From Paraburkholderia sp. BL10I2N1 (GTDB taxonomy: Bacteria > Pseudomonadota > Gammaproteobacteria > Burkholderiales > Burkholderiaceae), in assembly GCF_004361815.1 (NCBI RefSeq), contig NZ_SNWA01000002.1, forward strand, positions 3,348,001 to 3,412,000: DNA of 64,000 bases, read 5' to 3'. The notes beneath the pieces were generated by a model. It made no database searches and was not told the DNA's origin. It saw only the letters and a program-made list of their open reading frames with translations. A program made the position numbers and the translations under genes. Shown here piece after piece: positions 39,105-48,779 of the stretch; the stretch's first letter is position 1; each line of letters opens with the position of its first letter.

Positions 39105-42100
39105 TCAGTAGCGCCTCGTCAATCGCATCCGCGCCTGCTCCCTGATATCGGCATCGAGCGTGGCCGGGAAGTCGAACGAACTGGCCACGAGCGTCGCGAC
39201 TGGCACCCCGTCGCGATACAGCACGCGATTGCCGCTCACTGCCGGCACCTTGTCTCCCGGCAACAGGGTGCCGACGAGGTTCAACGGATCCGTGGCCGAC
39301 ACGCAGACAAACGCGCCGTCGTTCGCATGTCGGCGCACTTCGCGCAGCAGGGGGATCGCCTCGGGCAGGGCGAACTGCTCGCCAGCCAGCCCGTTGACGA
39401 AGCGGCCGCCGCGCACAAGCCCGCGCGCCTCCAGCTTTTGCAGCATGCGCAGCAGTTCGCCCCAGGGCGGCAGCCAGTCGGCTTCGCGTTCGAGCAGACG
39501 CCAGAACACGACGCCATATCGGCGCAGCAACGTCATTGCGATGTGTTCGAGCACGTCGGGATCGGTCGGCGGCGGGCGGTGGGTGGAAGAAGAGGAGGCT
39601 GCGTCAGCCGAAGCGGCCGGCCGGCGCCGCACCAGTGCCCAGCGTCCCGCATCGTCCATCCCGCCGATCAGCGCACCGGCGCCGCGCGGACGCCGGCTTC
39701 CGTAGTACGCGTTGCGCTTTGCCACGGGCTTGAGCAGAGCGCGCAATCCAGCGAAGCTGTCCGAATTCACGAGCCCTGCCGCAACCAGTTCGCCCAGCGC
39801 GTTTTCGAGTTCGATCTTCAGTATCCGCGCTTCCGACAGCAGTTCGTCGAAGAACATCGCGCCGTGCGCGGCGAGCACGTCGTACACCTGCTGGGCGCGC
39901 GCGGAAAGCTCGGGCAATTTCGACTGGTCGATCAGCGCGCTCCACATGCCGACATGACGCCGCGGCAGCAACACGATCGGCGTGCTGCGAACCGGCGCAC
40001 TGGCAGCGCGCGACCGTTCCGTCAAACGCGTCCACACCACCTTGCCCGAGCGGCATAGTTCATCGAGCGACGTGATCGAATAGTCCTTGAGACGGGCCGG
40101 CAGGATGTCTTCTTCCCATGCGCCCGCGGCCGCCTGAAAACCCTCGAGCTGATCGACGACCGCAGCGAGCGCATCGCGTCCTTCGCCGCGGGTGTCGGGC
40201 GTCAGGTGTTGCCATGCGAACAGGAAGCGCATGAAGTCGTGCCTCTCCACCGGCTCGATCTCGCGACGCAGACGCTTCACCGTATAGCGGTTGATGCGCG
40301 CGAGCAGATGCCGTTCGCACCATTGCTCTTCGGTGGCGCCGGGTGTGAAGCGGCCGCGCATCACATAGCCTTGCGCTTCGAGTTGCGTCAAGGCCTGCGT
40401 CACCGACGCAACCGGCAACGCCAGCGCGCCTGCGATCTGTGTCACGGGCGACGGGCCGAACCCGGTCATGCGCGCGCGGATCAGCTCAACCAGGGCTTCG
40501 TCTTCGTTCCACGCTTCCGTAAAGCCTCTCGGCGCGCGCAGGGACGGCTCCACCGGCGCGTCGGGGAAGAGCGCGCGCAGGCAGGTCAGACGCTCGGCCG
40601 GCAGCCAGAGCGCGTTGTCGGCGGCCACCTGCATGCGGGTGGCGCGGCCGCCTGTAGCCAGCGCTTCCAGCCATGCGGGCCAGCCGACGTTGCGCTGCGC
40701 TTCCGCTTCGGTGATGCACGCGAGGCCGGTCAGCGCCTCGTGCATTTCGTCGGCGCCCAGGGCTTGCGGCCACGCTTCGTCGCGCACGCTCGCGATCGCT
40801 TCGGGGTCGAGCGCGCCGAGATCGTCGGCGGAAGCGGGATCGGTCCAGCGGCGATTGAGCACGGCCTGGGTGCGGCGCTCTTCGAGGGGCGCATCGTCGA
40901 GATACGCATAGGGCTTCGCGGTCAGGATCTCGGCGGCAAGGGGCGAAGGCGCCGGCAGATCGCGCGCAACCAGCGTCACGTTGCCCTGTTCGATCCGGCG
41001 TAGCAGGCGCAGCCAGCCATCGGTGTCCATCGCTTCATGCAGACAGTCGTCGACCGTCTGGTCGACGAGCGGATGATTCGGCAATTCGCGTTCGCCGACG
41101 ATGTTCTCCAGACACGCCGCCTGATCCGGAAACACTGCCGCGAGCAGATCGTCGCTGCGCATGCGCTGGATCTGCGGCGCGGTCTTGCGCCCGCCGCTAT
41201 AACGCGGCAGCGCGAGCGCGGTCGTCGCATTCCAGCGCCAGCGCACACCGAACAGCGGTGCATCGAGCAGCGCCTGGATCAGCAGGTGTTCGGCCGTATT
41301 CGAATGCAGATAGCGCCAGACTTCATGGAGCGCGAAGCTGTGGCTGCCGGTCAGCGACAGGATGATCGCGTCCTCGGTCGCCGCCGCCTGCAACTCGAAA
41401 TTGAACGTGCGGCAGAAGCGTTTGCGCAGCGCGAGGCCCCACGCGCGGTTCAGGCGGCTGCCGAACGGTGCGTGAATCACGAGCTGCGTACCGCCGGATT
41501 CGTCGAAGAAGCGCTCCATCACAAGCGTGTCCTGCGTCGGCAGCACGCTCAGCGCGGAACGCGCGCGGGCCAGATACTCGACGATCTGCCGGGCGGCCGT
41601 CTCGTCGATGCCGATGTGCTCCATCAGCCAGTCGATCGCGTGTTCGATGTGCGCCGCGAGCATGGCCGGGGCCGTGAGTTCGGTGACTGCGGCGCCGCCG
41701 TCGGATTGCCCATCCGCAAGATCCGCAACGGCCGCAACCGGCTGTCCGGCGAACGCAGGTTCAGATGCTTGCATTAGCAACCGGTCGATCTGCGCGCGCA
41801 GGCGCGCAACTCCCATCGACAGTTCGTCACTCCGTCCCGGCGCCTCACCGAGCCAGAACGGAATGTTCGGCGACTGTCCGTGCGCATCCTCGACGCGCAC
41901 GCGCCCCGTTTCCACGCGAAGGATCCGGTACGACGCATTGCCGAGCTGGAACACATCGCCGGCAAGACTTTCGACTGCGAAATCCTCGTTGACGGTGCCG
42001 ATGTTGACGCCTTGCGGTTCGAGCACCACCGCGTAATCCGCGTTCTCGGGAATCGTGCCGCCCGACGTGACGGCGACCAGCCTGCTGCCGCGCCGTCCGC

Positions 42101-43607
42101 GCAGCATCCCTCCCACGACGTCACGATGCACGTACGCAGCACGCGGCCCGTGGCGGCTCGTATAGCCTTCCGCGAGCATGCGCAGTACGGCATCGTACTG
42201 CTCGCGCGTGAGGTCCGCGTAGGGCGCCGCGTGCCGCACGAGATCGAACAGCGCATCCTCGCTCCATTCCTGGCTTGCCACCTCGGCAGTGATTTGCTGC
42301 GCGAGCACGTCGAGCGGCGCGCGCGGGATCTCGAGCGTATCGAGTTCGCCGCGCCGCACGCAGTCGAGAAGCGCGGCGCATTCGATCAGGTCATCGCGCG
42401 AGGTCGGAAAGAGCCGGCCTTTCGGCATGCCGCCGACCTGGTGCCCGGAACGCCCGACACGCTGCAAGAATGCCGCAATGCCGCGCGGCGAACCCATCTG
42501 GCAGACTAGATCGACGTCGCCGATATCGATGCCCAGTTCAAGCGACGCAGTCGCAATCAGCACGCGCAATTCGCCGCGCTTGAGCTTTTGTTCGGCGTCG
42601 AAGCGATGTTCCTTCGACATGCTGCCGTGATGCGCGGCCACCGCTTCCTTGCCGAGCCGTTCCGTCAGATGCCGCGACGCGCGTTCGGCCATCCGGCGCG
42701 TGTTGACGAAGACGAGTGTCGTCCGATGCAGTGCCACCAGTTCCGCGAGCCGGTCGTAGACACGGTCCCACACTTCGTTCGGCATCACCGCTTCGAGCGG
42801 TACGGGTGGCAGTTCGAGCGCGAGATCGCGGGCCCGCACATGGCCTACATCGATGATCGCGCAAGCGGAGGGCGCGTCGTCGCTGGGGCTGGCGCCGCCG
42901 GTCAGAAAGCGCGCGACGGCCGCAACCGGCTTTTGTGTCGCCGACAGGCCGATGCGCGGCAGGCGCCGGCGACACAGCGCGTCGAGCCGTTCAAGACTGA
43001 GCGACAGATGACTGCCGCGCTTGCTGCCCGCGATCGCGTGGATTTCGTCGACGATCACCGTGCGTGTAGTCGACAGCATGCGTCGACCGGAGTCTGAACC
43101 GAGCAGCACGTATAACGATTCCGGCGTCGTGACGAGAATGTGCGGCGCGCGCTTGCGCAGCGCGTTGCGCTCCTGCTGCGTGGTGTCGCCGGTGCGCACG
43201 GCGGTGCGGATATCGAGCGCCGGCAGGCCGCGTTCGGCGAGCTCGTTCGCGATGCCTTCCAGCGGCGTCTGCAGGTTGATCCGGATGTCGTTGGAGAGCG
43301 CCTTCAGCGGCGAAACGTAGACGACGAGGGTCGCGTCGGGCAGTGCGCCGTCGTTGGCGAGGCCCTGCTTGACCAGTTCATCGATGGCCGACAGAAACGC
43401 CGTGAGCGTCTTGCCGGAGCCCGTCGGCGCGGCGACGAGCGTTGGGCGGCCGCGGCGGATCTCCGGCCAGGCGGCGGTCTGGGCGTCGGTGGGGGCGGGG
43501 AAGGTTTTCAGGAACCAGGCGGCGACGGCCGGATGGAAATCGGCCAGCACGCCGGCTGCTGGGGAGCCGGAGGTCATGGAACTGCAATTGGGGGCGCGAC
43601 GTGCCAT
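39105..43607 (-). CDS. lhr: Lhr, very large superfamily-2 DNA helicase
   Basis: 1500 residues, the normal full Lhr length. The N-terminal helicase core has Walker [15 protein letters not shown], motif [11 protein letters not shown] and motif [14 protein letters not shown], followed by the winged-helix and Lhr-specific C-terminal domains, the last third rich in Arg and Ala. Lhr translocates on single-stranded DNA and unwinds RNA:DNA hybrids in repair. Starts at 43607 and 43577 are both possible; the latter gives the more conserved N-terminus. Single gene. Confidence 0.93.
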
Positions 43608-44508: not shown

Positions 44509-44761
44509 AACAGCAAAACCGACAGAAAACGCCGATAGCATGATTTATACATAACGCATCAATTTCGCTCATCACCCAAATTCATCCCAATAAATAGAAA
44601 AAATGCTATTTATCGTTGTTTGACTAAATTGTTGGGAATTCCAGACGCCCTCGGGAAGTTGATTTGACGTTTATCTCGCACTACTTCCTAAGCCGGACGA
44701 GCCGGAACCAAACAGGTAGTACGATGCGTAGCCATATAGCCAGCCGATGCCGAAGTGAACC

Positions 44762-46276
44762 ATGAAGGCCGATCTGATTGAGCGTTACGCGGCGAATTTG
44801 CACGGCGTGCTGTCGTGCTTTGACCGAATCCTGATCACGGGCACGCTGCCTGGCGCGTGCTACGCAGCGGGCATGACGAGTTTTCTGAACGCCAACGGCA
44901 TTCGCCTATTCGACTACGCCAGGTTCGCCGAACCGCTGCGCGAACGCATCCGTGTGCGCGCGCAAGAGGTCTGCGCTGCCGCCGGCATCGAGATTGAGCA
45001 CGTCAACAAGAGCCACATCCGCAAGGAAGATCTGGTGGCACGCGTGCTGCAGGGGCGTGGCGATGCACCCGGGCTGGTGCACGTCATCTCGGCGATGGAG
45101 GCCTGCCCGAGCTACAAGCCGTGGCACGACAAGAGCAGCGGCAAGACCTACCTGCGCCCCGAGACGGGCAAGTGTCTGCACTACTACTTCTACTTCATCG
45201 ATGACGAACTCGGGCTGTGCTACCTCAGGGTCCCGACCTGGGCACCGTTCGGCTTGCAGTTCTACTGCAATGGCCACGGCGCCGTGGCCCGTGCGCTCAA
45301 GCGCGAGGGCATCGGGTTCGTGCAGGCCGACAACGCCTTTTTGCGCATTGCCGATATGGACCGTGCACAGGCCATCGCCGACGCGCTGAGCCCCGATATG
45401 CTGCATGAGCGACTGGACCGCTACGCGCAGTGGCTGTGCCCGGTGCTCGACGTGTTCGGCCAGACCTACCACTGGAGCCTGCGGCAGGCCGAGTATTCCA
45501 CTGACCTGATGTTCCGCAGCCAACAGACGCTGGTGCCGCTGTACGACGTGCTGTCGCGTCAGGCGGTGCTGGCCGCGCACGCCGGGAAAGTAGCCGGCTT
45601 CCTGGGCAAGAAGGTCACGCCGCAATTGGCGCAGGAGATCGGCTCGCGGCTGTCCACCCGCATCGAGGGACGCTGCATCAAGCACCATATGGGCGTTGCC
45701 AGCGTCAAGGTTTACGACAAGTTCTCCCATGTGTTGCGGATAGAAACCACCATCAACGACGTGAGCTTCTTCAAACACCACCGCAAGGTGGAACACAGGA
45801 ATGGCCAAAGCACCTACGAACTCGCAGCGTTGAGGAAAACCATCTACAGCCTGTTCGACCTGCGCGAGATCATGCTGGGCTGCAACCAGCGCTACCTCGC
45901 GTTTTTGTCGAGTCTGGATGACCCCAGCGCAGGTGAGCGCGACCTTCAACGTTTGAGCCAGTCCCGCGTGGGCAGTAATGAGCGCAGGGTCAAAGGACTC
46001 AACTTCTTCAACGGCGGCGAGCAAGCACTGCTGCGTGCCTTGCAGCGCGGCGAGTTCAACGTGCATGGCCTGCGCCGTGCCGATCTGGCCAGGCATGTGG
46101 ACATGAGCGCCCCGGTGCTGTCCCGACAGCTCTCGCGACTGCGCACACTCGGCTTGATCAAGAAGGTGGCCCATACCTACCGCTACTACCTCACGCGTCT
46201 GGGCCGCGCCGCCATCGCTGCTGCCTGTTCTCTCACCCGTTTCAACATCGTTCCAATTCTGGCCGCAGCACACTGA
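44762..46276 (+). CDS. Conserved winged-helix protein, probable mobile-element protein
   Basis: 504 residues. Conserved N-terminal block (LHGVLSCFDRILITGTLPGACYAAGM), ALVHVISAMEACPSYKPW-like and LHYYFYFIDDELGLCYLRVPTWAPFGLQFYCNGH blocks, VYDKFSHVLRIETTINDVSFFKHHRKVEHRNG, and a C-terminal winged helix (DLARHVDMSAPVLSRQLSRLRTLGLIKKV). Relatives are often called MarR regulator because of this last domain, which I think is misleading: the protein is far longer than MarR. Its function is unknown. It is flanked by a direct repeat, see the mobile element entry. Confidence 0.8.
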   Translation: MKADLIERYAANLHGVLSCFDRILITGTLPGACYAAGMTSFLNANGIRLFDYARFAEPLRERIRVRAQEVCAAAGIEIEHVNKSHIRKEDLVARVLQGRGDAPGLVHVISAMEACPSYKPWHDKSSGKTYLRPETGKCLHYYFYFIDDELGLCYLRVPTWAPFGLQFYCNGHGAVARALKREGIGFVQADNAFLRIADMDRAQAIADALSPDMLHERLDRYAQWLCPVLDVFGQTYHWSLRQAEYSTDLMFRSQQTLVPLYDVLSRQAVLAAHAGKVAGFLGKKVTPQLAQEIGSRLSTRIEGRCIKHHMGVASVKVYDKFSHVLRIETTINDVSFFKHHRKVEHRNGQSTYELAALRKTIYSLFDLREIMLGCNQRYLAFLSSLDDPSAGERDLQRLSQSRVGSNERRVKGLNFFNGGEQALLRALQRGEFNVHGLRRADLARHVDMSAPVLSRQLSRLRTLGLIKKVAHTYRYYLTRLGRAAIAAACSLTRFNIVPILAAAH

Positions 46277-46310
46277 AGTCTTCTCACAAATCGCGAAGAC
46301 TTAACTTTTT
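46276..46310 (+). terminator. Hairpin terminator after the 504-codon gene
   Basis: Arms AAGTCTTC (46276-46283) and GAAGACTT (46295-46302) with an 11-base loop, followed by AACTTTTT. The stem begins at the last base of the stop codon. Confidence 0.65.
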
Positions 46311-46400
46311 AGTTACTAAATTGCGATCTCGCCCGAAATTGCGAATGCGACGCGTAGCTTCGAATCCCGCGGTTTCGCTTGTTCCTCTCAACGAACCGGT

Positions 46401-48779
46401 ATGCGTATGAATGCTGTAACGAAGTCTCTGACGGATGTGTTGCGCCATCCGAGCGCGCGCCTGACCCAGCGTCTGCGGATCTGGCTCGGTACGCTTGATC
46501 TCGGCCTCGACGTGCTCGACTTCAAGGTGCGCGCGGGCCTCTGCAATGACTATACGGTCGATATAACGGTTACGTCGTCGCAGCTGGATATCGACGGCAA
46601 GCGCTGCGTCGGGAGGCGGGCGGGGCTACAGATTGACGAACTGGCGACGGTCCCTTCGGTAAGCTATATCGATCCTGTCAACCATGAAGCGGCCACCTTC
46701 AACGGAGTCGTCACGCGCTGGAAACGTATCCGTGTGAGCCGCGACGAGGCCGCCTACCAGCTGCGAATCGAGCCACGCTTCGCAGCCCTGCTCAAGCAGA
46801 TAGTCAAGTCCGAGACGTTCAGGGACAAGACGTTTCAGGAGATCGTCACCGAGCTCGTTGTCGACCGGAAAAACTTCGACCCCTTCGATATCGAGTTCCA
46901 TCTCGAAGGGGCGCAGGAGAAATTCGAACAGGTCGTCATGTACGAGGAGTCGGTGTGGGCGTTTATTGTCAGGCACGCCAGGCGCAAAGGAATTTTCTGG
47001 TCTACAAACAGGGACGCGGCAAGGAAGGCAAGCTCGACACCCTCGTATTTTACGGACAACCCGCGCGGCTATATCCGCTCGCTTGAGCTTCCACTCATGC
47101 CGGATTCCGGCCTGACGGGCAACTGGCACGAGGCGGTACTCAAGGTCAACGAAAAGCGTACGCTGGTCGCGGCCTGCATCGAGCTTTGGGAGCGCAACTA
47201 TCGGACGCCCGAGGACCAGTTACGGGCGACGGCGAACGTCTCCGATGACGCTGACGACCGCTCGGTATTCGGGCAGATCAGTCGCAGCGCGGAATTCCAT
47301 CTGACGCCGGAACAGGGCGAAGCACTCGCGCAGGTGCGGCGTGACGAGCAGATCGCGCGGCAGGCGACGCTGTCGGGCACGACCAACGCGAAGGGTGTAG
47401 TACCGGGCGTCGTCGTAAAGCTGACCAATACGAAGGTCGCAAGCGCCGAATATGGCTTCGTGATTACTTCGATGAAGATGAAGGGCAGCCGTACGAAACC
47501 GGCCTACACAAAGTTCAAGGCGATGCCCGCGCACCTCGCCTACCGGCCCGAGTTCGTATACGAGCGGGACTGGAGATTTCTGAATGGCCCCGTCGTCGGC
47601 GTTGTCACGACATTTGATACCGCGCCTTACGCGTGTCTCGACGAGTTCGGGCGCTATCCCGTCCTTCCGAAATTTCTCCAGGGTTCGGCGAGCACCGAAA
47701 AGCAGGTCCTTTATCTGCGCCTCCTGCGTCCGTCGTCGTCCTATCAGGGCGGCTTTCACTCGCCACTGCTCCCGACGACCGAAGTCCTGCTCGAAGCCGC
47801 CCACAACGATGTGGACCGCCTTCACATATCCGGTGCCCTGCACGACTATTCGCACCCTGACGTCGTACACGGCGCACAGGCGATGTTCAGCTATGCAATC
47901 TGGCGCTCGCCGCTACGCGGCGCGGAGATCGTCTTTAACGATCTGAAGGACAAGGAAAGCGCGCGCATCGCGACGGTGTACAGCCAGTCGGCGGTGAACC
48001 AGGGCTACCTGCTCAACAGCAAAAAGCTCCTGCGGGGTGAAGGATCAGAAATTACGACCCAGGGCTGGGGCACGATGCGAGCCGCCAAGGGGCTGTTCTT
48101 CTCGGCGGACGCGGCGGCCGGGGCCGATACGCCGCACCTTGAGATGCCCGCAGCCGTCGCGCAACTCAAGGCGGCATTGCAACGTGTAACGGACCTTGCG
48201 GCGGCGACGGCGCAGGCCGGGGCCGACCCTGCCGACCGGGTCACGCAGGCGGCGCTCGTCGACGGCCTGAACCAGCTTCGCGATGCGGGACTGCTCGCCA
48301 GCGCTCCGGGCGGCATGGCGTTCGTAACGCCGAAATCGGCGCAGCACTCGGCGGGCCAGAACGTGATCGTCACCGCGGGTCAGGACATGGACGTCAGCGT
48401 CGTGAAGCGTCTGCGCATGGTAGCGGGTGACCTGATTTCGTTATGCGCGCACAGACTCGGCATCAACCTGACCGCCGCTAAGGGCAAGTTTACGGCTGCG
48501 GCGCTGACGGACGGGATGGATCTGTTCGCGCAGAAGCAGTTGCGTGTCGCGAGTGAGAGCGCGGACGTTCAGGTCGCGGCGAAGTCGAAAATCACGCTGA
48601 ACAGCGGCGGGGCGTCATTGGTGATTGAAAACGGCAACATGACTTTTCACTGTCCTGGTGCGTTCACGATCAAGGCCGGCTCGTTCACGTTTGTGGGACC
48701 CGACAACGTACCCGCCGTACTGCCCGTCCTGCCGAAAGGCGACCTGACGCTCAATGAGCGGTACTCCCATACGAACTGA
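46401..48779 (+). CDS. vgrG: VgrG spike protein of type VI secretion (with DUF2345)
   Basis: 792 residues. N-terminal gp27-like half, gp5-OB region near 400-500 and a DUF2345 beta-helix about 560-720 (VTAGQDMDVSVVKRLRMVAGDLISLCA). It forms the trimeric tip on which the effector rides. Residues 201-217 (STNRDAARKASSTPSYF) fit no VgrG. The frame one base over reads FYKQGRGKEGKLDTLVF-like sequence, so a one-base loss near 47000 and a one-base gain in the TTTT at 47048-47051 compensate each other. Starts at 46401 or 46407. First gene of the T6SS operon. Confidence 0.92.
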   Translation: MRMNAVTKSLTDVLRHPSARLTQRLRIWLGTLDLGLDVLDFKVRAGLCNDYTVDITVTSSQLDIDGKRCVGRRAGLQIDELATVPSVSYIDPVNHEAATFNGVVTRWKRIRVSRDEAAYQLRIEPRFAALLKQIVKSETFRDKTFQEIVTELVVDRKNFDPFDIEFHLEGAQEKFEQVVMYEESVWAFIVRHARRKGIFWSTNRDAARKASSTPSYFTDNPRGYIRSLELPLMPDSGLTGNWHEAVLKVNEKRTLVAACIELWERNYRTPEDQLRATANVSDDADDRSVFGQISRSAEFHLTPEQGEALAQVRRDEQIARQATLSGTTNAKGVVPGVVVKLTNTKVASAEYGFVITSMKMKGSRTKPAYTKFKAMPAHLAYRPEFVYERDWRFLNGPVVGVVTTFDTAPYACLDEFGRYPVLPKFLQGSASTEKQVLYLRLLRPSSSYQGGFHSPLLPTTEVLLEAAHNDVDRLHISGALHDYSHPDVVHGAQAMFSYAIWRSPLRGAEIVFNDLKDKESARIATVYSQSAVNQGYLLNSKKLLRGEGSEITTQGWGTMRAAKGLFFSADAAAGADTPHLEMPAAVAQLKAALQRVTDLAAATAQAGADPADRVTQAALVDGLNQLRDAGLLASAPGGMAFVTPKSAQHSAGQNVIVTAGQDMDVSVVKRLRMVAGDLISLCAHRLGINLTAAKGKFTAAALTDGMDLFAQKQLRVASESADVQVAAKSKITLNSGGASLVIENGNMTFHCPGAFTIKAGSFTFVGPDNVPAVLPVLPKGDLTLNERYSHTN

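Follow-up and report, generated by a model that had tools for sequence, protein, structure and literature searches.

The window analyzed here, a 64,000-nucleotide stretch of Paraburkholderia sp. BL10I2N1 (contig NZ_SNWA01000002.1, positions 3,348,001 to 3,412,000), carries a compact element that, judged from its copies, is a genuine and recently active insertion sequence (IS), with what appears to be a transposase of a class not previously linked to transposition. The reading we prefer, at a probability of roughly three in four, is that of an autonomous single-gene IS whose protein is a Rep_trans-like tyrosine endonuclease with a TBP fold, fused to a MarR-like DNA-binding domain, and which is excised in a manner like that of the IS200/IS605 elements. 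A first-pass annotation, made from the letters alone, had pointed to a 504-codon gene with a C-terminal winged helix lying between perfect 9-bp direct repeats and had interpreted the whole, from 44623 to 46323, as a mobile element with a 9-bp target duplication. The gene, its winged helix, the repeat, the further copies, and the mobility all hold; the extent and the duplication do not.

Copies and empty sites

Using positions 44600-46345 as a query against the same genome and then comparing the flanks of the matches, we obtained 16 matches on three contigs, namely, 11 full-length copies (that of the window included) and 5 fragments. The full copies lie at unrelated sites, and what they have in common is limited to the sequence from CCT(AAGCC) at the left to TTACTA at the right, placing the junctions between CCTA and AGCCGG (44690/44691) and directly after ACTA (46318/46319). 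The length of the element is counted accordingly, from the base after CCTA through the end of ACTA; any point inside the common CTA fits equally well. Six of the ten other full copies show no internal difference from the window copy, and the remaining four show 1, 1, 2, and 3. The presence of these copies agrees with the multicopy nature that the first-pass annotation gave for relatives and answers one of the checks it proposed. No miniature inverted-repeat transposable elements were found, as all left ends (13) and right ends (11) in this genome belong to the listed copies and fragments. The copy with three differences (L019) has also lost its last six bases; a 3' fragment (L021) lacks the same six and has an identical right flank, suggesting that one region probably arose by duplication of the other or that the same other element cut both.

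For 10 of the 11 full copies, the joined flanks (600 bases) were also searched in 144 genomes of the genus, this one included, with junction-spanning hits counted among the loci fetched. Such hits were found for the window site and for five other copies. For the window site there are three (L254-L256), 72-74% identical to the joined flanks over positions 221 to 595-597 of 600, with an uninterrupted flank and one CCTTA at the position of the element. The other sites gave 4 hits (L011), 2 loci of one place at 93% over 600 bases (L012), 30 hits with some loci counted twice (L013), 29 hits (L016), and a single 94% paralogue within the same genome, with CCTGG (L018). One relative at site L016 (L265) has an intact 350-residue open reading frame (ORF) there, a LysR-type regulator by its reading. 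Site L014 is resembled by a short repeat of 47-58 bases (6 hits in one locus), and sites L010, L015, and L017 had no junction-spanning hit among these genomes. The spanning sequences contain one CCTA-like stretch only, which argues that insertion produces no duplication beyond the CTA common to both ends. Near-identical copies at unrelated sites, sharp ends, and empty sites together point to a mobile element, as the first-pass annotation had supposed, and to one recently active.

Ends and target tetramer

A left end recognizable by the pattern CC[T/C][A/G][A/G][G/C], with no pairing demanded, is present in 55 of the 63 tabulated loci. With that of the window this makes 56 ends, all consisting of a CCTA-type tetramer followed by A[G/C]-stem-N5-stem-AA; the flanking tetramer is CCTA in 52, CCTG in 2, and CCCA in 2. 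The 4-bp stem has compensatory changes on both sides at three of its four pairs, and 98.8% of its cells pair, whereas slid controls give 1.3-48.1% and shuffles 94.3%; in one of the five measures, further pair types, it was not above the shuffles (305 of 500 reached it). At the right, 44 of 49 relatives examined fit T[A/T]AG-NN(N)-[N][C/T]TA, ending in ACTA (35), CCTA (6), ATTA (2), or CTTA (1) and followed by A (34), G (5), C (4), or T (1). A general right-end hairpin is missing or different in most of the 19 relatives folded. The two ends, CCTAAGCC... and ...TTAGTTACTA, are not inverted copies of each other; hence, there are no terminal inverted repeats.

Diverged members keep this organization with other tetramers. 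In a subfamily 34-35% identical to the Dorea protein, CATA serves as both left flank and terminus, with a 6-bp left hairpin (three copies compared), and in one from Caballeronia, about 26% identical to the window protein, TCTA stands at both places, with a 5-bp left hairpin (two copies). In all three subfamilies the flanking tetramer equals or approximates the terminal one. In one relative (L089) the right end continues into about nine repeats of AAGTACCT, its own terminal motif. A 50%-identical relative (L315) has one copy located where a tandem array of CCCTATC/CCCTATT ends; the units of this array include the CCTA target.

The protein

The structure model comprises a TBP-fold domain and a MarR-like winged helix, with solved Rep_trans rolling-circle initiators among its fold matches. 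Across 57 sequences, K316-x-Y318-x-K320 and R326-x-E328 are invariant, reproducing the Rep_trans hallmark of a tyrosine with a lysine at the second residue after it and RxE on the following strand; Q242-x-E244 stands in place of the RxD of motif I. Fold matches and conservation single out Y318 as the candidate nucleophile and D21, E244, and E328 as candidate metal ligands, and nine residues of active-site type are kept down to 26% identity. The best reading of the model is a predicted Rep_trans-like tyrosine endonuclease.

Family searches see little of this. There was no match to a transposase family in Pfam, NCBIfam, or PHROGs or to a serine-recombinase or IS110 family in the family-model searches; PF02486 (Rep_trans) is absent from the families found for the 57 members (E <= 0.01), and a profile-profile comparison against 30 Rep_trans sequences was likewise negative. 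No H-x-H is conserved among the invariant residues of the 57 sequences, and the sole type of Pfam match is to helix-turn-helix domains, with MarR models scoring below the cutoff and HTH_5 barely exceeding its own. HUH, RNase-H-like, and recombinase folds are not among the fold matches listed, though such lists alone leave an HUH fold possible. A BFVD structure search returned TBP-fold and unnamed proteins at low TM-scores. An apparent intein in a Dorea copy, in one 1,075-residue open frame, was rejected as only a run of N.

Table 1. Coordinates of the element and its parts in the window
Feature	Position	Strand	Remarks
Insertion sequence	44691..46318	+	1628 bp; 11 full genome copies, 10 with both ends intact
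Gene of putative transposase, 504 aa	44762..46276	+	sole ORF of such length conserved across relatives
TBP-fold, Rep_trans-like domain (predicted), codons 1-394	44762..45943	+	fold matches, conservation
MarR-like winged helix, codons 392-504	45935..46273	+
CCTA, left flanking target tetramer	44687..44690	+	CCT in every copy's left junction
Left-end hairpin CCGG-ACGAG-CCGG	44693..44705	+	both-side changes at 3/4 pairs; pairing in 98.8% of cells
Right subterminal inverted repeat AAGTCTTC-N11-GAAGACTT	46275..46301	+	overlaps stop codon; not kept in most folded relatives
Right terminus TTAGTTACTA, last tetramer ACTA	46309..46318	+	copy comparison; 44/49 relatives fit pattern

To the left of the element lies a gene for an Lhr-type large helicase (1,500 residues, 39105-43607). 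On the other side, a VgrG-type gene (Phage_GPD, T6SS_Vgr, DUF2345; 46401-48779) begins 82 bp past the right end; with the insertion directly upstream, expression of this gene could be affected.

Parallels and proposed mechanism

Several parallels are suggested by known systems. Elements of the IS200/IS605 type insert 3' of a short tetramer without target duplication and have subterminal hairpins, and IS200-type transposases are about 150 residues long. As far as the DNA shows, our element behaves likewise, with insertion 3' of CCTA, no target duplication, and a hairpin that is found at the left end and, in some members only, at the right. Its 504-residue protein, however, has a predicted TBP-like fold and no H-x-H among its invariant residues and does not present the HUH motif with the Y1 tyrosine. 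At the level of the protein, the parallel is with the Rep_trans enzymes (PF02486; pT181-type Rep and MOBT relaxases), which have the TBP-like fold predicted for ours and share with it a tyrosine on strand 10 between basic residues, an RxE on strand 11, and an acidic residue on strands 1 and 6. The differences are the lack of detectable sequence similarity, QxE for RxD, the C-terminal winged helix, and that a 1.6-kb element is mobilized rather than a replicon. The relevant sections of a 2017 review assign Rep_trans proteins to the replication of plasmids and phages and to conjugal transfer, with transposition treated under IS91 and the Helitrons (PMC5714925). The same two-domain layout, a Rep_trans-like TBP fold plus a MarR-like winged helix, is described in sections of a 2026 paper for Rep-Arvir (DUF7845, PF25227), initiators of archaeal viruses and plasmids related to Rep_trans at the level of structure only (PMC13107129). 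By that account these are archaeal and act in replication rather than transposition; the BFVD entry A0A2N9QVX7 is matched by both the Rep-Arvir model and that of our protein (TM-score, 0.22), and no sequence similarity to the one Rep-Arvir member compared was found.

Rep_trans chemistry, that is, a nick with a 5'-phosphotyrosine, combined with such ends would produce movement like that of either IS200/IS605 or IS91. Under the former, which we favor, the protein would bind the left hairpin and the right end, and Y318, aided by a metal that D21, E244, and E328 hold, would cut a single strand, 3' of CCTA on the left side and 3' of ACTA on the right, with a 5'-phosphotyrosine formed at the cut. 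The two ends of the element would then be joined into a single-stranded circle and the donor resealed, and the same cut in a target CCTA would let the element enter 3' of it without target duplication. Mobility, the ends, the target tetramer, the left hairpin, the conserved residues, and the lack of duplication beyond CTA can be read from the sequences compared; the catalysis, its strandedness, the circle, and the fate of the donor copy are what we infer.

IS608 prefers one replication strand, a preference not seen for our element. In a skew test of 40 loci, of which the 15 with strong skew were used and the 25 with weak skew left out, the coding strand lies on the C-rich strand in 11 of 15, and CCTAA itself is distributed 123 to 62 toward that strand (binomial p 0.79). 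Three of the 15 loci belong to the CATA subfamily, which should not be measured against CCTAA; leaving them out gives 8 of 12. An apparent bias within this genome, 7 of 9 chromosomal full copies by coarsely sampled skew, fell to 5 of 9 with local skew. Orientation lends no support to a replication-fork bias.

The alternative that survives best, though we regard it as rather unlikely, is that the same Rep_trans-like enzyme copies the element out from one end by an IS91-like rolling circle, with no circle excised. Rep_trans enzymes are rolling-circle initiators, and in the relevant sections of the 2017 review, IS91, ISCR, and the Helitrons (HUH Y2) likewise lack inverted repeats and target duplication and have a transposase akin to replication initiators (PMC5714925). 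Theirs, however, belongs to another nuclease superfamily, no transposase family was matched here, and 10 of the 11 full copies are precise at both ends, none extending beyond the right end into the flank. A double-strand recombination on a common core of 2-3 bp (CT or CTA), formally like that of IS607 or IS110 with the chemistry unspecified, is improbable: a crossover anywhere in the CTA common to flank and terminus fits all junctions, but the predicted TBP-like fold, the absence of recombinase family matches noted above, and the asymmetry of the ends, of which one side has a hairpin, speak against it. DDE-type ISs are not a fit, there being no DDE family match, no inverted repeats at the termini, and no duplication of the target; the first-pass annotation had likewise seen no DDE motif or terminal inverted repeats.

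It is very improbable that the protein is a regulator or passenger, with the element moved in trans by the transposase of another system. The winged helix alone matches known families, and sources that name the protein call it an ArsR or MarR regulator, with which it shares the fold of its C-terminal domain. Yet this domain makes up only about the last 110 of the 504 residues, the remainder being predicted to have another fold, so the protein as a whole is not a small winged-helix regulator. Moreover, no other long gene of the element is conserved, the ends stay the same from phylum to phylum, and in three subfamilies a change of target tetramer goes with changes of hairpin and protein.

As for the 9-bp duplication, ACTAAATTG occurs in the window only at 44623 and 46315, against 0.12 occurrences expected. 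The right one consists of the terminal ACTA plus five flank bases, and the left one (44623-44631) lies outside the element, 59 bp upstream of its left end. The other copies have nothing in common left of CCT, and ACAAAAACG aligns at the left position in the three insertion-free relatives of the window site, marking it as ordinary homologous flank. The comparison of copies and empty sites thus refutes a duplication, the pair of repeats being, on this evidence, due to chance; the empty site foreseen by the first-pass annotation exists, with a single CCT(A/T)A instead of a single ACTAAATTG.

Distribution of the family

A protein search (E <= 0.001) matched 7,869 of 7,999 scored candidates, and one started from a diverged relative matched 8,000 of 8,000. 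Several of the best 120 matches sit on contigs of 1.61-1.64 kb, as expected for a repeat assembling alone. A scan of one genome per species gave 182 relatives, the 80 retained of which, with phyla as labeled in the records and many being metagenome bins, come from Proteobacteria, Bacteroidota, Bacillota, Chloroflexota, Planctomycetota, Nitrospirota, Acidobacteria, and others; several copies each are present in Dorea, Lachnospiraceae A4, a Rhodocyclaceae bin, and an Anaerolineales bin. Matches in 10 of 144 genomes of the host genus and 7 of 274 in a sample of the class, this genome included in both, indicate a patchy distribution. One match lies on plasmid pOLGA1 of P. phytofirmans OLGA172. A 26%-identical relative (L250, NZ_CP070610.1) lies in long inverted repeats (3,284 bp at 99.9%) near both ends of a linear Rhodococcus plasmid; for these R. 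koreensis copies, inside the plasmid-end repeats, element ends were not obtained.

Wherever a source gives names, the relatives are labeled ArsR or MarR regulators or hypothetical proteins, in keeping with the MarR label that the first-pass annotation had mentioned. Its placement of the element outside known IS classes likewise agrees with the Pfam, NCBIfam, and PHROGs models and the literature searched (ISfinder not covered). We found no paper on this element or on any Rep_trans-like transposase in that literature, with ISfinder, preprints, and most subscription journals outside its scope.

Implications

Taking these findings together, we lean toward the view that TBP-fold, Rep_trans-like tyrosine transposases constitute a further major transposase class, driving a very large family of single-gene elements that crosses phyla and in which each subfamily has its own target tetramer matched by its own right terminus. 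Such a class could have been overlooked because the databases see the winged helix at most. If this is true, thousands of proteins now annotated as regulators or hypothetical would turn out to be transposases, affecting annotation, mobile-element counts, and surveys of regulators. Transposition would also join the known roles of Rep_trans-type nucleases, replication and conjugation, providing a counterpart to the HUH transposons. These small one-protein systems, with short subfamily-specific targets, would make the coding of target choice testable.
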